A stretch of DNA of 64,000 nt from Methanobacteriota archaeon (lineage in GTDB: Archaea; JAADCQ01; Methanopyri; Methanopyrales; Methanopyraceae): NCBI GenBank assembly GCA_027064425.1, contig JAMOPO010000003.1:62001-126000 (forward strand), written 5' to 3'. A program made the position numbers and the translations under genes. A model generated the notes under the pieces. The model made no database searches and was not told where the DNA came from. It saw only the letters and a list, made by a program, of their open reading frames with translations. Of this stretch, positions 39,473-57,370 are shown one piece after another; position 1 is the first letter of the stretch, and every line of letters starts with the position of its first letter.

Positions 39473-41128
39473 ATGCGTTTGTCGTTCAGACTACCTGGGG
39501 CGAGGACCTGCGCGGTAGCCTGGGCACTCGCGACGCTCGCAACGCTCGCGGCCTCTCCCCGGCTAACGGCGTACGCGCTCCTCCCCGTGCTAGGCTGCCT
39601 CTGCACGGTCCTCTCCGACCGGGTACGAGGCCGTGACGTGCCCGTCAACCGGTGGGTGTTCACCTGGGCGATCGCCGGCACGCTCGACCTGGTGGGAGCC
39701 GCTCTCGCGACCCTGGCACCCGCCGTCCTGGCGGCGGCTCGGGGACTCTCCTCCACGCTCCTGTCGCTGTCACTGCTCGGCACGGTCGAGCGGTCCCCGA
39801 TCAGGAGCGCCGCCGTCCTCCTCTACCTGGCGGCGAGCGCCATCCCGCTGTCGAGGGTGGCCAAGACGTCGCCGCTGCTCCCCCTCCTTCCATCTCTGAC
39901 CGGGTGGGTCATCGCCGCCCTCGCGATAACGGTCCTGGACACGGTCACCAAGGCCTCGCTGGGGATCGGTACCACGGAGGCGCTGGCGGAGTTTCTCAAG
40001 TTCAAGTCTGGCCGTAAGCACTCCCTGGACGCGATCTTCCGCCGGCTCAGCACGGTGACGCGCGTGACCGTCCCCGTGCGAGTCCTCGCCTTCCTAAGCT
40101 CCGGAAAGGTCGTAGGATGCTTCGTGATACCCTGGGTTCACCCGGGCCCGGTGGGGAAGATCGGGGGCGGAGACCTACCCGGTCGGATCGTGAGGAGGCT
40201 GCTCAAGCGGGGCGTGGTACCGCTCGTATTCCACTCCACGACCACGCACGACTTCAACCCAGTGGACCGTCGCGAGGCCGAGAAGGTCGTCGACGCGGTG
40301 GTCGAGCTGGTTCGGCGGGCGGAGGGCTCCCGCGGGTCCGCACGCGCGTCCCGGGCCGTGCGTGGGAGCGAGACGGACTCGATCGGCCAGGTGCTGGGGA
40401 ACCGGTTGTTCCTGGTCCTCTCCAAGTACCCTGAGCCCAGCGACGATATTGACCCCGCGACCGGCGTCTACATCGAGGCCAGGACGGGCGCGTGGGTGGT
40501 GGACGGTCACAACTGCTTCGGCGACCCCGAGGAGGGCCGCGTGCACGCGTTCTCCCCGGACTTCTGGCGGCTGCTGAACGACGCGCTCTCCATCTCGGAC
40601 CAGGTGGAGGCGACCACCGGCCTTCGAGCCGGGTTCGCTCACGCGGATCCGGAGCTGGGGCCGGAGTCAGGAGTGGGCAGCGGTGGAGTCTCGGTGGCGG
40701 CGGTGGAGGTGGACGATCATCGGACGCTGTACGTGGTCCTGGACTCGAACAGCATAGTCAGGGAGCTGAAGGAGCGCATCGAGCGGGAGCTGTCAGACCT
40801 TGCGGATGAGGTAGTGGTGTGTACCTCGGACTCGCACGAGGTGAACCCGCGCGGATATAACCCGGTTGGCGACGCGCTGGTGAAGGCGGACGAGGAGCTC
40901 GTCCGGGCCGTAAGGGAGGCGGCTGAACGGGCGGTTGACGGGCTCAAGCCCTGCGAGGTCGTGGAGCTGGAGGAGTGGGTCGAGGTCGCGGTCACCGGCC
41001 CGGGCAGCTTCCAGCAGCTGTCTCACTCCGTCAAGGTCGCCCAAAGGATGGTCAAGATACTCCTCCCCGCGGTCTTCCTGGGGGTGACGGTTCTTTCCAC
41101 GGTCACCGGGCTCTGGCTCCCGGGCTGA
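39473..41128 (+). CDS. DUF2070-type membrane protein
   Basis: A 551-aa protein with seven or so membrane helices in the first 190 residues and a large soluble domain (about 215-530). The soluble part has His-containing motifs (PWVHPGPVGKIGGGD near 222, FHSTTTHDFNPVD near 257, CTSDSHEVNP near 466) that suggest a metal-dependent hydrolase. A last hydrophobic helix ends the chain. The features match my recollection of the archaeal DUF2070 family; no activity is known. ATG at 39473 or GTG at 39461 may be the start. A glycosyltransferase gene follows directly. Confidence 0.75.
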   Translation: MRLSFRLPGARTCAVAWALATLATLAASPRLTAYALLPVLGCLCTVLSDRVRGRDVPVNRWVFTWAIAGTLDLVGAALATLAPAVLAAARGLSSTLLSLSLLGTVERSPIRSAAVLLYLAASAIPLSRVAKTSPLLPLLPSLTGWVIAALAITVLDTVTKASLGIGTTEALAEFLKFKSGRKHSLDAIFRRLSTVTRVTVPVRVLAFLSSGKVVGCFVIPWVHPGPVGKIGGGDLPGRIVRRLLKRGVVPLVFHSTTTHDFNPVDRREAEKVVDAVVELVRRAEGSRGSARASRAVRGSETDSIGQVLGNRLFLVLSKYPEPSDDIDPATGVYIEARTGAWVVDGHNCFGDPEEGRVHAFSPDFWRLLNDALSISDQVEATTGLRAGFAHADPELGPESGVGSGGVSVAAVEVDDHRTLYVVLDSNSIVRELKERIERELSDLADEVVVCTSDSHEVNPRGYNPVGDALVKADEELVRAVREAAERAVDGLKPCEVVELEEWVEVAVTGPGSFQQLSHSVKVAQRMVKILLPAVFLGVTVLSTVTGLWLPG

Positions 41129-41129
41129 C

Positions 41130-42218
41130 GTGTACTGCACGGCGTTCGGACTCGGGTTCGGCCACGCCTCGCGGGTGCTGGGGATCACCCGGGAGCTGCT
41201 GAGGCTGGAGGCTGACGTCGTGCTGAGCTCCTTCGGGGAGGGGTGGAGGCTGCTCACCAGGGAGCTGCCCGACGCGACCGTGTACAGGATCCCGACGATC
41301 GAGATCTTCTCCCGCTCGGGCTCCTTCAGCGTAGTTCACGTGCTGAAGCGGCACCCCGATCTCCCGCTGCGGTTCTACGCCGGGCTCGAGCTGGACATGA
41401 GGATAATCCGGCGGCACGGCTGCCGGGTGGTAGTGTCCGACTGCCAGTTCCACGCGCTGGCGGCGGCGCGCCTGCTGGACGTGCCCGTCGTGCTGATCAC
41501 CAACCTCCTCCGGGTCCCGAACGCCGACCCGGCCTCGAGGCTAGTGAATTGGTTCCTGCGGGAGTTTCTCAGCCTGGCCGACGTCGTGATCGTCCCCGAT
41601 GCGCCCTTCGACGAGTCCACCGATCTCGACGCGGAGGTGGTCTGGGTGGGACCGATCCTCCGGGTCCGGCCGGACGAGCTCCCCGGCGAGCGGGAGATCA
41701 GGGAGCGCTTCGGTCTGCCTGAGGACACGCCGATCGTCCTAGTCACGGCCGGCGGTTCCCCGCACGGTAGACGGATCGTGGAGCTCGCCGTCGAGGGGAT
41801 CAGGCGACTCGAGGAGGATGTGTTCACGATCGTCGTGAGCAGCGGGCTGGGAGCCGAGATCCTGCGCGGGATTCCGGGCCGGGTCCTCAGCTACGTGGAC
41901 AACTTGATGGAACTGATCAAGGTGGCGGACGTGGTGGTCACTCACGGCGGGCACACCACCATCTCCGAGTGCGCCTGCCTAAGGACGCCGGTCGTGTCCA
42001 TCCCACTGCCCGGGCATCCGGAGCAGCTGATGAACGCCCGCCGGGTGGAGGAGCGGCGGCTGGGGGTCGCCCTGATGCCTGAGGACCTCTCGCCGGTCCG
42101 GGTGGCCGAGGCTATAAGGGATGCGATGGGCAGCCGGGTACCGCGGGCGCGATTGATGGACGGCAGGGGGGCGGAACGGGCTGCCCGCATCGTCCGGGAG
42201 GCAATGGACGCGCCGTGA
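41130..42218 (+). CDS. MurG/GT28-like glycosyltransferase
   Basis: A 362-aa GT-B-fold glycosyltransferase. The N-terminal Gly motif is FGLGFGHASRV (about 6-16). The C-terminal donor site has VTAGGSPHG near 209 and VVTHGGHTTISECACLRTP near 268, then PLPGHPEQLMNA. It lacks a membrane helix and is likely peripheral. GTG at 41130 comes 1 nt after the upstream stop. With the following dolichol-kinase-like gene it suggests lipid-linked sugar chemistry, possibly wall or N-glycan precursors; this is inference. ACG at 42208, near its 3' end, is the proposed start of the next gene. Confidence 0.82.
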   Translation: MYCTAFGLGFGHASRVLGITRELLRLEADVVLSSFGEGWRLLTRELPDATVYRIPTIEIFSRSGSFSVVHVLKRHPDLPLRFYAGLELDMRIIRRHGCRVVVSDCQFHALAAARLLDVPVVLITNLLRVPNADPASRLVNWFLREFLSLADVVIVPDAPFDESTDLDAEVVWVGPILRVRPDELPGEREIRERFGLPEDTPIVLVTAGGSPHGRRIVELAVEGIRRLEEDVFTIVVSSGLGAEILRGIPGRVLSYVDNLMELIKVADVVVTHGGHTTISECACLRTPVVSIPLPGHPEQLMNARRVEERRLGVALMPEDLSPVRVAEAIRDAMGSRVPRARLMDGRGAERAARIVREAMDAP

Positions 42219-42780
42219 GGTAGGCCGGCAGCTGATACACATCGGGTTCGGGCTGCTGTTCATGGTCCCCCTGCACCTGCTCGGCCCGATCAAGTTCTGC
42301 CTGTTCTTGCTCGCGATCCTCATCCCTGGTTTGGCCGTGTCCGCCTGCGTGCGCCGCGGGATTTACGTTCCGCTGATCACGGAGCTGGTGGAGACGTTCG
42401 AGCGACCAGAGGAGATGGAGCTGCCCGGGCAGGGCACCCTGCACTTCCTCACCGGCGTGCTGGTCGCGACCGCCATCGCCCGGCAGGTCCAGATCGTGGA
42501 CGTGGCGATCATCGTGCTGGCGGTGGGGGACGGCGTGTCCACGATCGTGGGGGTTCCGTTCGGCCGAACGCCGCTCCCCCACAACCCGGACAAGAGCTTA
42601 GAGGGCAGCCTGGCCGGCTTCGTCTCCGCGGCCGCGCTGGCCTCCATCTGGACGCGAGACCCGGCCGCGTCCGTGCTGGCCTCCCTAGTGGGGACCGCGG
42701 TGGAGACGCTGCCGGCGCTGAACGATAACGTCACCATTCCCATCGCCGTCTCTCTGTTCCTCCTCTGGTGGTGGTCCTGA
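42208..42780 (+). CDS. Dolichol kinase / phosphatidate cytidylyltransferase-like membrane protein, apparent ACG start
   Basis: A polytopic protein (190 aa with this start) of the SEC59/dolichol kinase-like group. The conserved block GDGVSTIVGVPFG is near residue 108, followed by NPDKSLEGSLAGF. The family's N-terminal RK/RQ-x-x-H motif (here GRQLIHIG) is encoded before the first ATG (42262), so the gene must start earlier. No ATG, GTG or TTG exists in frame. ACG at 42208 follows GGGAGG with a 6-nt gap. An alternative is GTG at 42215 overlapping the previous stop, which needs a one-base frameshift before a TAG at 42221. It lies in a glycosyltransferase - kinase - unknown membrane gene run. Confidence 0.7.
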   Translation, partial: TRREVGRQLIHIGFGLLFMVPLHLLGPIKFCLFLLAILIPGLAVSACVRRGIYVPLITELVETFERPEEMELPGQGTLHFLTGVLVATAIARQVQIVDVAIIVLAVGDGVSTIVGVPFGRTPLPHNPDKSLEGSLAGFVSAAALASIWTRDPAASVLASLVGTAVETLPALNDNVTIPIAVSLFLLWWWS

Positions 42781-43706
42781 TGAGACTGGCGATCACCGCG
42801 GCGGCCTCAGCCGCCGCCCTTGTCCTCGTGATGCTGTGGGGACCGGACTACCTTGCGCCCGCCGCGCTCATCCTGGAGGGGGGTAGCAAGCCGAAAGTGG
42901 TGGCGTTCTTGCTTCTGATGACCCTGACATCGGCCGCCGCGATCCTCCTCAGACTCCCCGATCGCAGGTGGGAGCTCGCACTCCTAATTCTCCCGTTCCT
43001 ATCGAACGCCCTCCACTGCGTCGGGGTGAGCTTGTCCGGGCTGCCGACGACCGTGGAGGTGTTCGTGTTCGACGGCACGAAGCTGGAGGGGGACTCGCCC
43101 TTCCACACCCACGTGGGCAAGTCTGCGGTCTCCACGGTGCTGCCCAGCTCCGCCGAGCCCGTCTCCGCGCACTCCGGCCGCTCGCTGTGCCGGGTTTACC
43201 CGGCGTCCGTCCGGGCCGCCGAGCTGGCGGTCGTAACCACCTCAGTGGTCCTCGCGGCCGCCGCCAGCCGCGGCCCGGTGACGTGCTTCGCCGGCTCCCT
43301 GCTGGCGATGAGCACGGTGGACGGGGGAGGATTCTCCCTTCCCTACATCAACGGGTGCTGGCTGATGGCCCTGACCGAGGCCGCTCGGGGAGGGAAGGTG
43401 GAGTCGGCGACGTTCGGCTTGGCAGCCCTGCTGTCCCCCTACGCCAAGATGGTGCTCGGGACTGAGGTCACGGCCCGGTACTACGGGTCGCGCTGGGACC
43501 GGATCCACGTGATCCCGGTGAACGTGCCCAAGCCGGTGCTGACCGAGGCGGGCGCCAGGCCGCTCGGACCCGGCGTTTACGCCATCAGGGCCCGAGACAG
43601 GTGCGCCTTCCTGCGCGGGCTCGAGCGCGGGCTGCGCGAGAGGAGGTGCCGGTGGGCCGAGGTCCTTCTGGTCCCAAACATCGGGGCGCACCTTACGACC
43701 GGCTGA
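42780..43706 (+). CDS. Membrane protein of unknown function
   Basis: A 308-aa protein with about five hydrophobic helices, three of them in the first 85 residues and the others near 150-200. A soluble loop between (about 88-140) has DGTKLEGDSPFHTHVGKSAV. The C-terminal 80 residues are soluble. Not recognised. ATG at 42780 overlaps the stop of the kinase-like gene, so it belongs to the same operon. The 3' end overlaps the convergent helical-protein gene by 14 bp. The HTH in the loop could be a metal site, but this is a guess. Confidence 0.6.
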   Translation: MRLAITAAASAAALVLVMLWGPDYLAPAALILEGGSKPKVVAFLLLMTLTSAAAILLRLPDRRWELALLILPFLSNALHCVGVSLSGLPTTVEVFVFDGTKLEGDSPFHTHVGKSAVSTVLPSSAEPVSAHSGRSLCRVYPASVRAAELAVVTTSVVLAAAASRGPVTCFAGSLLAMSTVDGGGFSLPYINGCWLMALTEAARGGKVESATFGLAALLSPYAKMVLGTEVTARYYGSRWDRIHVIPVNVPKPVLTEAGARPLGPGVYAIRARDRCAFLRGLERGLRERRCRWAEVLLVPNIGAHLTTG

Positions 43707-44154
43707 CCCGACTCTCAACGAACTCCCTGAGAAGGTCTCTCTCAACTCCCAGGGCCTCGGCCAGCCTGTCCGTCGCCTCCCGGACGAAGTCCTCAACGAC
43801 CTCCTCCAGCTCCCGCTCCACCTCCTCCAACTCCTCCTCCAGTTCCTCAGAAGACCCGCTCAGCTTGGACTTCGACTTGCGCAGCTCCTCGTTGATGCGG
43901 TCCGCCCTCCGGCGGAGCTCGCGCACCTTCTGATCGACCTCCATCTCCCGCTCTACGACGCCGACGACCTCTTCGAAGTCGAACTCAGCCCGCACGATCC
44001 GCGTGAGCAGCCGGTCGAATTCGTCCTCCCCTAGGCGCCCTCGTAGGTGCTCGGTGAGCTCCTCCAGGAACCGCTCGACTCGGAGGGAGGTCTTCGGGTC
44101 CAGCTCTCGCAGCTTCCTGCCGAGCTCGGCCGGGTACGCCTTGAACGCTCTCAG
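43693..44154 (-). CDS. Acidic coiled-coil protein, apparent CTG start
   Basis: A 153-aa, highly charged helical protein without cysteines. A heptad-rich coiled coil spans about 75-125 (SEELEEELEEVERELEEV). The first standard start is a GTG at 43995, but the frame upstream continues with the same charged helical character (FKAYPAELGRKLRELDPKTS) up to a TGA. CTG at 44154-44152 overlaps the upstream radical SAM stop as CTGA and follows GGTGAGGGG, mirroring the ATGA/GTGA/TTGA overlaps elsewhere. It is the last gene of the operon site-2 protease - radical SAM - this protein. The function is unknown. Confidence 0.6.
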   Translation of the reverse strand: MRAFKAYPAELGRKLRELDPKTSLRVERFLEELTEHLRGRLGEDEFDRLLTRIVRAEFDFEEVVGVVEREMEVDQKVRELRRRADRINEELRKSKSKLSGSSEELEEELEEVERELEEVVEDFVREATDRLAEALGVERDLLREFVESRVSRS

Positions 44155-48241: not shown

Positions 48242-49891
48242 TTGAAGGAGCACTGGGCGGAGGTGAAGGCGCGGGAGGTTGAGAAGCACCTCGAGGAGCA
48301 CGGGTTAGAGGAGGTAGTCGTAGCGAGCGGCGCCTCGACCTCCGGCCGGCTGCACGTGGGCAACGCCCGGGACGTCCTCACCGCGGACGCCGTGGCCCGG
48401 GTGCTGGAGGAGCGAGGGCACGACGTTCGGGTGATCTGGGTCTCCGACGACGTGGACCCGCTGCGCAGGATCCCTCGGGACCTCCAGGACGAGCTCGACG
48501 AGGAGTACCTCGGCGTCCCCTACAAGGCCATCCCACTCGAGGACGGCACCCCTTACTCCGACCATTGGGCCGAGCGGTTCGTCCGCGAGCTGCGCGAGTT
48601 CGGCGTCGACGTCGACTGGGTATCCTCCGCCGAGCTGTACACGGAGGAGGAGTTCGCGGAGCTGGTCCGGCAGGCCGTGCGTGACTACTACGAGAACGGA
48701 CGACTCAAGTCCATCTTCCGCCGGTTCGGTCTCAAAGAGGCCCGCGTGTACATGCCCATCTGCGAGCGGTGCGGTCGCATCGCTACAACTCGGGTTAAGT
48801 CCATCGACGGATGGGAGATCGAGTACGTCTGCGAGGGTCGTCACCGCGTGGGCGACGCCGTGCTCGAGGGCTGCGGTCACCGCGGCAGGCTCGACCTCCG
48901 GACGCCGATCGAGGTGAACGACCTCGAGGTCCCTCCGGGCAAGCTGGGCTGGAAGGTGGAGTGGCCTACCAGATGGTACTACCTTGGCGTCGCCTGCGAG
49001 CCGTTCGGTAAAGACCACTACGTGTCCGGCGGGTCCTACGAGGTCGGCTCTGAGATCGTGGAGGAGCTCTTCGACTTCCCGGCCCCGGTGCCGGTGCCGT
49101 ACGAGTGGATCACGCTGGAAGGGAAGGCGATGTCCTCCTCCAAGGGGCACTACGCGACCCTGTCCGACTGGGCGGAGGTGTGCCACCGTGAGGTCCTTCG
49201 CTACTTCGTGCTCAGGAGCAAGCCGCTCAAGCACCTCGACCTCGACCTGAGGTTCGGGCTGCTCCAGCTCGTGGACGACTACGACGAGCTGGAGGCCAAG
49301 TACTTCAACGGCGAGGCGGACGAGCGGGAGCGCCGACTGTACGAGCTCACGCGCGTGGACGGCGTGCCCGAGGAGTGCCCACCGCACGTCCCGTTCCGGT
49401 TCTGCGCCGTCGTCGTTCAGGTGCTCGACATCCGAGGCGAGGTGGGCGAGGAGGAGCTAGAGCGGGCCGTCCGCGTGTTCCGCAGGACGGGGCATCTCGA
49501 GGAGGAGCCCGAGGGCTTCGGGCGTGAGTGGCTGAGGGAGCGGCTGGAGAAGGCGGCCCGGTGGGTGGACCGGTACGCGCCCGAGGAGGTCCGGTTCCGG
49601 GTGCGCGAGGAGCCGGAACCCGTGGAGCTGGACGAGGCGGAGCGCGAGTTCCTGCGGACCCTGCTGAGGCGGCTGGAGGAGGTCGAGTCCGAGGATCCGT
49701 CCGAGCTGCAGCGCGCGTTCTTCGACGCCGCCCGGGACGCCGGACTTAAGCCCGGCCGCGCCTTCCGGGCCTTCTACCGCGTAGTCATCGGGAAGGACAG
49801 GGGCCCGAGGGCCGGAACGCTCACAGCGGCCGTGGGGGTGGATCGGATTTCGGAGCTGATAAGGGGCTGCCTCGAGGCTTCCGGAGGCTAG
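48242..49891 (+). CDS. lysS: Lysyl-tRNA synthetase, class I
   Basis: Class I LysRS, found in archaea and a few bacteria, charges tRNA-Lys. The 549-aa protein has the HIGH-equivalent HVGN in STSGRLHVGNARD (about 29-41). The KMSKS-equivalent is MSSSK near 297. A cysteine-rich insertion (CERCG...CEGRH, about 176-205) fits the zinc site. A C-terminal helical anticodon-binding cage ends the chain. TTG at 48242. The upstream gap has CAATCGTTCTTGGGGAG, a partial relative of the 25-bp inverted repeat. Confidence 0.96.
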   Translation: MKEHWAEVKAREVEKHLEEHGLEEVVVASGASTSGRLHVGNARDVLTADAVARVLEERGHDVRVIWVSDDVDPLRRIPRDLQDELDEEYLGVPYKAIPLEDGTPYSDHWAERFVRELREFGVDVDWVSSAELYTEEEFAELVRQAVRDYYENGRLKSIFRRFGLKEARVYMPICERCGRIATTRVKSIDGWEIEYVCEGRHRVGDAVLEGCGHRGRLDLRTPIEVNDLEVPPGKLGWKVEWPTRWYYLGVACEPFGKDHYVSGGSYEVGSEIVEELFDFPAPVPVPYEWITLEGKAMSSSKGHYATLSDWAEVCHREVLRYFVLRSKPLKHLDLDLRFGLLQLVDDYDELEAKYFNGEADERERRLYELTRVDGVPEECPPHVPFRFCAVVVQVLDIRGEVGEEELERAVRVFRRTGHLEEEPEGFGREWLRERLEKAARWVDRYAPEEVRFRVREEPEPVELDEAEREFLRTLLRRLEEVESEDPSELQRAFFDAARDAGLKPGRAFRAFYRVVIGKDRGPRAGTLTAAVGVDRISELIRGCLEASGG

Positions 49892-49893
49892 AC

Positions 49894-50973
49894 ACGGAGA
49901 ACGTCGTCCGCGGTGAGCTGCCCAAAGGCTGCCGGCTCTGCGTCAAGGGCGCCAAGCTGGTGGTCTTCATCACCGGCGAGTGCGAGCGGGGCTGCTGGTA
50001 CTGTCCCGTCTCCCCAGAGCGCAAGGGCCGGGACGTGATGTACGCCAACGAGCGGCCGGTGCGCGGCGAGCGGGACCTGCTGGAGGAGGCGGAAATTATG
50101 GACGCCAAGGGGGCCAGCCTGACGGGAGGCGACATCACCCTGCGGCTCGACCGCTGCGAGGAGGTGGTAACCACCCTGAAGGGCGAGTTCGGTGAGGACT
50201 TCCACGTCCACGCGTACGTGCCGGCGGAGTCCGTGAGCCGAGAGGCGCTCGACAGGCTCTCGGAGGCTGGCCTCGACGAGCTCCGGATCCACCCGTCCTT
50301 TAACGAGGACATCAACGAGCGGGCCGCCCGGTTGGCCTCAGAGTACGACTGGGACGCTGGATTCGAGATGCCCGCGATCCCCGGTCGGGAGGACTGGATC
50401 GTGGAGGTGGCGAGGCTGTCGGAGCGGCACGGGCTGGACTTCTTGAACGTTAACGAGCTCGAGTTCACCGAGTCGAACGCCGAGGAGCTCAAGGTGCGCG
50501 GGTTCAAGCGGGTGAGCGAGGACTCCGACGCCGTGCAGGGCAGCGAGGAAACGGCGATAAGGGGTCTCGCCAGGGCCGCGAAGGAGGTCTCCATCACGCT
50601 GCATTACTGCCCGTCCGTCGTTAAAGACTCCGTCCAGCTGCGCGAGCGGCTCAAGCGAACCGCCCTGAACGTGGCGGAGGAGCACGAGATGGTCGACGAG
50701 GACGGCCTGATCGTCCGCGGAGAGATTAGAGTGAAATCCGGCGACCCGGAGGACGTCGCCCGGGTGCTGACGGAGATCCTGGAGGTGCCGGAGGAGTGGG
50801 TGAGGGTGCGCACGGACCGGGTGGAGGTGAAGCCCGTAGTCCTGGAGGAGCTGGCCGACCTCCTGGACGACATCGCCGAGGCGGCCGGGTGCGAGCTCGA
50901 GGCCGTGATCGTTCGGGAGTACCCGACGTGGGACCGGACCGTGGTGGAGGTGTGGCCGGTTGGGGGTGAGTGA
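49894..50973 (+). CDS. Radical SAM protein (COG2108-like), apparent ACG start
   Basis: Radical SAM enzyme related to PFL-activating enzymes, 359 aa with this start. The cluster motif is CERGCWYC (near residue 29-36 from ACG). SLTGGDITLR and a C-terminal acidic region follow. The conserved lead-in RGELPKGCRLCVKGAKLVVF lies upstream of the first standard start (GTG 49960), so initiation must be earlier. The only ribosome-binding-site-positioned codon is ACG at 49894: GGAGG at 49883-49887, then 6 nt. It lies 2 nt after the lysS stop. No ATG, GTG or TTG is in frame between the upstream stop and 49960. The substrate is unknown. Confidence 0.72.
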   Translation, partial: TENVVRGELPKGCRLCVKGAKLVVFITGECERGCWYCPVSPERKGRDVMYANERPVRGERDLLEEAEIMDAKGASLTGGDITLRLDRCEEVVTTLKGEFGEDFHVHAYVPAESVSREALDRLSEAGLDELRIHPSFNEDINERAARLASEYDWDAGFEMPAIPGREDWIVEVARLSERHGLDFLNVNELEFTESNAEELKVRGFKRVSEDSDAVQGSEETAIRGLARAAKEVSITLHYCPSVVKDSVQLRERLKRTALNVAEEHEMVDEDGLIVRGEIRVKSGDPEDVARVLTEILEVPEEWVRVRTDRVEVKPVVLEELADLLDDIAEAAGCELEAVIVREYPTWDRTVVEVWPVGGE

Positions 50974-57292: not shown

Positions 57293-57370
57293 GGGCCGGC
57301 AGCTCAGTCTGGACAGAGCGCGGGCCTTCGGAGCCCGTGGTCCCGGGTTCAAATCCCGGCCGGCCCACCA
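57293..57370 (+). tRNA. tRNA-Arg (UCG) with C at position 8
   Basis: A cloverleaf with acceptor GGGCCGG/CCGGCCC, D stem GCTC/GAGC, anticodon stem CGGGC/GCCCG with loop CTTCGGA (anticodon TCG), T arm CCGGG/CCCGG with loop TTCAAAT, discriminator A and an encoded CCA. It reads Arg CGA codons. Position 8 (57300) is C, while tRNAs almost always need U8 to pair with A14, which is present. In M. kandleri C8 is edited to U8 by the deaminase CDAT8, so the same is expected here. It has no intron. A 25-bp inverted repeat starts 5 nt after the CCA. Confidence 0.97.

Follow-up and report, generated by a model that had tools for sequence, protein, structure and literature searches.

A radical SAM gene directly behind lysS in Methanopyrus lacks a standard start codon and may be translated from ACG

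How is a gene translated whose conserved N-terminus is encoded ahead of its first standard start codon? This question is raised by a radical SAM gene located behind lysS in the stretch of archaeal DNA analysed here (64,000 nt; referred to as the window). The window belongs to a draft genome of 1.54 Mb in 57 contigs (G000). The original prediction implied M. kandleri as the host; instead, the genome represents a relative of that species within the genus Methanopyrus and not strain AV19, with 65% identity between the two radical SAM proteins. Four further genomes of the genus were used for comparison, giving five Methanopyrus genomes together with the host: G001 (1,421,521 bp), G002 (taken as AV19; 1,694,969 bp), G003 (JAMOPY), which is the nearest relative (87% identity of the radical SAM protein) and was independently assembled, and G004 (JAADCQ; 59% identity).

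The upstream gene, lysS (48242-49891, plus strand), encodes a class I lysyl-tRNA synthetase with matches to TIGR00467 and PF01921. Its 3' end reads GCT TCC GGA GGC TAG, the stop codon TAG occupying 49889-49891. Across this junction, the radical SAM frame reads CTA GAC ACG GAG AAC GTC GTC CGC GGT GAG. It is open from 49750, the preceding in-frame stop ending at 49749, and between this position and the GTG at 49960-49962, the first in-frame standard start, it holds no ATG, GTG or TTG, as originally predicted. The description of an in-frame ACG at 49894-49896, positioned 6 nt after GGAGG, was equally accurate. The Shine-Dalgarno-like GGAGG (49883-49887) lies within the final lysS codons, and the ACG, 2 nt past the lysS stop, differs from AUG by a single mismatch and is placed so as to give the full N-terminus. 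Starting at this most likely start codon, the gene would extend from 49894 to 50973 on the plus strand (359 aa, stop TGA at 50971-50973) and matches PF04055 with an E-value of 2e-11. An Rfam search across the lysS/radical SAM junction returned no match.

The stretch before 49960 very probably encodes protein, as judged by its conservation. The peptide encoded there, RGELPKGCRLCVKGAK, aligns across all Methanopyrus genomes, and the radical SAM CxxxCxxC of the protein is preceded by an N-terminal GC-x-x-C. This GC-x-x-C is present in 32 of 32 homologous loci inspected (about 30 distinct), which bears out the claim that a conserved lead-in precedes GTG 49960. Loci with the motif G-C-x-x-C-x-x-G range over Methanopyrus, Methanocorpusculum, a Bathyarchaeota bin and other archaea, and 28 of 40 further archaeal genomes contain relatives of the protein. 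In the shortest homologues, the first Cys follows 13 residues; the ACG start would give 12. The alternative that translation begins at GTG 49960, the upstream similarity being a fossil or regulatory, can appeal to this codon being the first standard start. However, a protein starting there would lose the GC-x-x-C seen in every homologue inspected, and no Shine-Dalgarno sequence lies ahead of this GTG; we regard this alternative as highly improbable.

The order lysS-radical SAM is kept in all five Methanopyrus genomes, which the original prediction had missed along with the movement of the start and the presence of other start-less genes in the window. Comparison of this codon with other Methanopyrus genomes, which it had proposed as a check, gave a mixed outcome. 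The ACG is shared by the host and G003, which retains it although the codons on either side differ from those of the host; the same column holds ACC in G001 and G002 and TCG in G004, so that among the four relatives ACG is conserved in G003 alone. Three codons on, the GTC of the host (49903-49905), shared with G003 and G004, is replaced by GTG in G001 and G002, where it is the only possible standard start and lies 11 nt past the lysS stop. At the column of the 4-nt stop/start overlap (49888-49891), the host, G001 and G002 carry CTAG, G003 carries CTGA and G004 carries TTGA. Hence, the standard start of G004 is a TTG overlapping the lysS stop, while the host and G003 have no standard start and share the ACG 2 nt past the lysS stop; G003 additionally offers the CTG within CTGA. 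The candidate starts of the five genomes all fall within -4 to +11 nt of the lysS stop, and the alignment indicates drift of the start position across the junction. GGAGG itself is present only in the host; G003 has GAAGG, and G001, G002 and G004 lack a match.

How unusual is this arrangement? A same-phase frame free of stops over the final 144 nt of the gene was found in 143 of 263 host genes, and one third of these frames (48 of 143) are also devoid of ATG, GTG and TTG. The open radical SAM frame by itself is therefore ordinary. A Shine-Dalgarno match of at least 5 nt at a spacing of 5-10 is found ahead of about 9% of random codons, and at 146 conserved host starts the spacing, measured from the final G of GGAGG, peaks at 7-9 with a mode of 9. 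Given this background and the usual spacing, GGAGG-N6-ACG amounts to only modest evidence. A spacing of 6 nt is permitted but not preferred, and the Shine-Dalgarno sequence is supportive rather than decisive. The unusual part, as far as the alignments indicate, is the conserved N-terminus without a standard start, a state seen in roughly 1-2% of the genes compared.

Taken as a whole, the comparison points, with somewhat better than even confidence, to near-cognate initiation of the radical SAM gene, probably by re-initiation behind lysS, with ACG 49894 as the most likely codon. The ribosome would complete lysS at TAG 49889-49891 and remain at the junction, where the terminated ribosome would be kept near GGAGG. 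Re-initiation would then take place 2 nt downstream on the ACG, read by initiator Met-tRNA, to give a product with the N-terminus M-E-N-V-V-R-G-E-L-P-K-G-C. As the post-termination ribosome would already be on site, initiation should depend less on the codon. We infer both the use of ACG as start and that a weak codon suffices by virtue of the coupling to lysS. In those bacteria for which measurements exist, ACG performs poorly as a start, and several observations weigh against its use here: outside the host and G003 the codon is not conserved, some relatives have no Shine-Dalgarno sequence, and the 6-nt spacing is below that usual for the host. The distance of 2 nt from the lysS stop is within the limit of about 14 nt for a termination-reinitiation pair; in Haloferax, re-initiation is cut by about half at 13-14 nt and almost abolished at 22 nt (PMC10666635). 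Loss of aIF1, a factor that guards against incorrect starts (PMC6237735), was considered as a cause of relaxed starts and rejected, since aIF1 is present and ordinary-looking in all five genomes.

If a non-standard codon is used, it might be a different one, namely GTC 49903, CTA 49888 at the overlap, or CTG 49867 inside lysS. The start column does vary, with TTG in the G004 overlap, CTG in that of G003 and GTG at +11 in G001 and G002; moreover, GTC 49903 is aligned with the GTG of AV19, and CTG 49867 occurs in five of five genomes. On the other hand, CTA and GTC pair worse than ACG with the initiator anticodon, and CTG 49867 is held constant by the lysS reading frame as well, with a Shine-Dalgarno match of only four bases, which leaves this choice of codon unlikely. 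A plain sequence or assembly error concealing a standard start would be conceivable in a draft of 57 contigs, but G003 is in the same start-less state within a different surrounding sequence, and both genes, lysS and radical SAM, keep unbroken frames on either side. An error at this position is therefore unlikely, and we give it hardly any weight. Among the three options originally offered, direct ACG initiation has gained the best support, sequence error is disfavoured by G003, and editing has found no specific evidence.

The 3' end of lysS suggested at first that it might be dual coding. A -1 slip of lysS ribosomes at GTG-GGG-GTG (about 49829-49837) would yield a LysS-radical SAM fusion, and in each of the five genomes the radical SAM frame extends without a stop into lysS. 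In favour of such a slip, one case of -1 frameshifting has been reported in archaea (PMC8211752). Synonymous conservation is elevated in these genomes over the final lysS codons (49829-49888), with 83% fourfold identity from GTGGGGGTG to the stop versus 51%, and this conservation begins exactly at the point where a ribosome slipping by -1 at GGG would move into the radical SAM frame. However, open frames of this kind are common in host genes, and a pairwise test of 270 genes places the conservation only seventh, which reduces dual coding to a minor possibility. A classical slippery heptamer X-XXY-YYZ is absent, leaving G-GGG-GTG, at which a P-site slip alone is possible, and a consensus RNA fold of the five sequences lacks convincing covariation. 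The extra peptide varies between genomes (R to E and G to E), and G001, G002 and G004 possess standard starts. We consider a slip at lysS very unlikely. The strongest full-length 3' synonymous conservation in the pairwise test was observed elsewhere in the host, in the gene at C3:36875-38353 (minus strand), where AV19 has the identical codon at each of the 16 comparable positions among the last 18, against 54% in the body of the gene.

Could the ACG be converted to AUG in the mRNA by C-to-U editing? A frame at C3:38738-39511 (minus strand, same contig but outside the window) encodes a CDAT8-like protein of 297 aa with a THUMP domain and a below-threshold cytidine-deaminase match, and is likely the CDAT8 orthologue by sequence. 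C8 occurs in 10 of 11 convincing tRNA genes found in the host, and both findings together make tRNA editing very probable. A single C-to-U change would turn ACG, CTG and, in one G003 gene, GCG into standard starts; nevertheless, the same codons also arise by drift from T to C in a GC-rich genome. The known CDAT8 editing of tRNA base 8 in M. kandleri shares the genus with our case, and C-to-U conversion would repair the candidate codons, but the substrate of CDAT8 is reported to be tRNA with a matured acceptor stem (PMC3695527), whereas the substrate here would be an mRNA without one. In addition, the editable codon is not retained throughout the relatives that have the editing enzyme (AV19 has ACC), and in three of the four relatives the radical SAM gene has GTG or TTG instead of an editable ACG. 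Start editing of ACG to AUG is known from chloroplasts, where the same codon change as proposed here requires plant-type editing factors; the Methanopyrus case differs in that the codon is not conserved as ACG. Editing of this particular codon consequently appears very improbable to us. We are just as sceptical of the wider proposal that Methanopyrus edits start codons in its mRNAs (ACG to AUG, CUG to UUG, GCG to GUG), so that genomic starts can lose their T. As a separate observation, a 100-bp stretch with tens of copies in all five genomes proved to be a tRNA-Arg gene (57293-57370 of the window), the other copies presumably being further tRNA genes.

Near-cognate starts may not be confined to this locus. 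A survey covered 428 orthologue pairs (about 0.68 Mb of the host versus 1.1 Mb of AV19), with G001, G003 and G004 added where sequence could be compared. Most automatic missing-start flags were dropped because they concerned antisense or low-complexity frames, alignments through Shine-Dalgarno motifs, or overlapping genes. About eight further genes without a standard start in the host or AV19 were left, with CTG or ACG and mostly at tight junctions. They were picked by eye from alignments after artefact removal, and near-cognate codons are so frequent that some will adjoin a start by chance; both points weaken the support that these genes lend to ACG initiation.

Two of these genes are located in the window. 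The gene at 42208-42780 (plus strand), whose product has a weak cytidylyltransferase-family match, overlaps the preceding gene's stop and shows the arrangement GGAGG (42197-42201), CAATGG, ACG (42208-42210); AV19 has TTG and G003 CTG. At 43693-44154 (minus strand), a CTG in a CTGA overlap is shared by the host and G003, with TTGA in G001 and G002. Elsewhere in the host, C3:43232-44062 has CTG 3 nt past a stop (GTG in AV19), and C15:115367-116434 has CTG as first codon (TTG in AV19). C15:341656-342363 has CTG where AV19 has GTG two codons on; because the sequence ahead of it is AT-rich and promoter-like, this gene may be uncoupled. The firmest start-less case is C15:35414-36079, with CTG in CTGA in the host, G001, G002 and G003 and TTG in the same column in G004. 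The CTGA gene of AV19 in 1493351-1494061 reads CTG AAG GCC CAA TGG. In AV19, the orthologue of window gene 41088-42218 reads ACG AGG GTA (host GTG, G003 GCG), ACG and GTA being the sole candidates ahead of a conserved GFGHASR motif, the gene at 987437 has CTG, and that at 957374 has CTG in CTGA, or ATC where the host has ATG. In G003, this GCG (C11:3035-4168, minus strand) replaces the GTG start of the host 1 nt past the upstream stop, and no near-cognate codon occurs between the in-frame stop and the GCG, which may represent an error, an unusual start or editing.

Together, the start-less genes suggest that RNA editing is a less likely cause than a relaxed choice of start codon where genes adjoin closely. 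Widespread use of CUG and ACG as starts at coupled junctions across the genus is a plausible but tentative proposal; this broader pattern is a more interesting result than the single ACG gene. Gene callers normally take only ATG, GTG and TTG, so such genes will be truncated or mis-started in databases. As in known near-cognate CUG/ACG initiation, there is one mismatch to the initiator anticodon, and a Shine-Dalgarno sequence or local context helps; the difference is that prokaryotic gene callers and start-switch studies register hardly any such starts, whereas here they concern an enzyme gene along with several more. No report of ACG starts in archaea was found in the open literature searched, although this does not prove that none exists. 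Among the small ORFs newly identified in M. mazei, about 5% were assigned a CTG start (PMC11456600), and a reconstruction of start switches over about 69,000 starts found four switches to CUG and none to ACG (PMC5622118). Should 1-2% of the genes of Methanopyrus begin with CTG or ACG, start selection would be looser than such published rates suggest, despite an ordinary aIF1. The radical SAM gene resembles archaeal termination-reinitiation pairs, among whose overlaps the 4-nt form is the commonest (PMC10666635), in that its start lies few nt from an upstream stop, G004 having the TTGA overlap. It differs from known pairs, which have standard starts, by an overlap codon of CTA or CTG and a candidate ACG at +2.

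A different irregularity emerged at C15:274915-275874 (minus strand) of the host, which we take to be probably SelD, and at AV19 1397219-1398175 (minus strand). Both contain an in-frame TGA before ACKLPQGD (...HG-TGA-ACKLPQGD..., the flagged region following the TGA), with the frame conserved on both sides, and the TGA is probably a selenocysteine codon.
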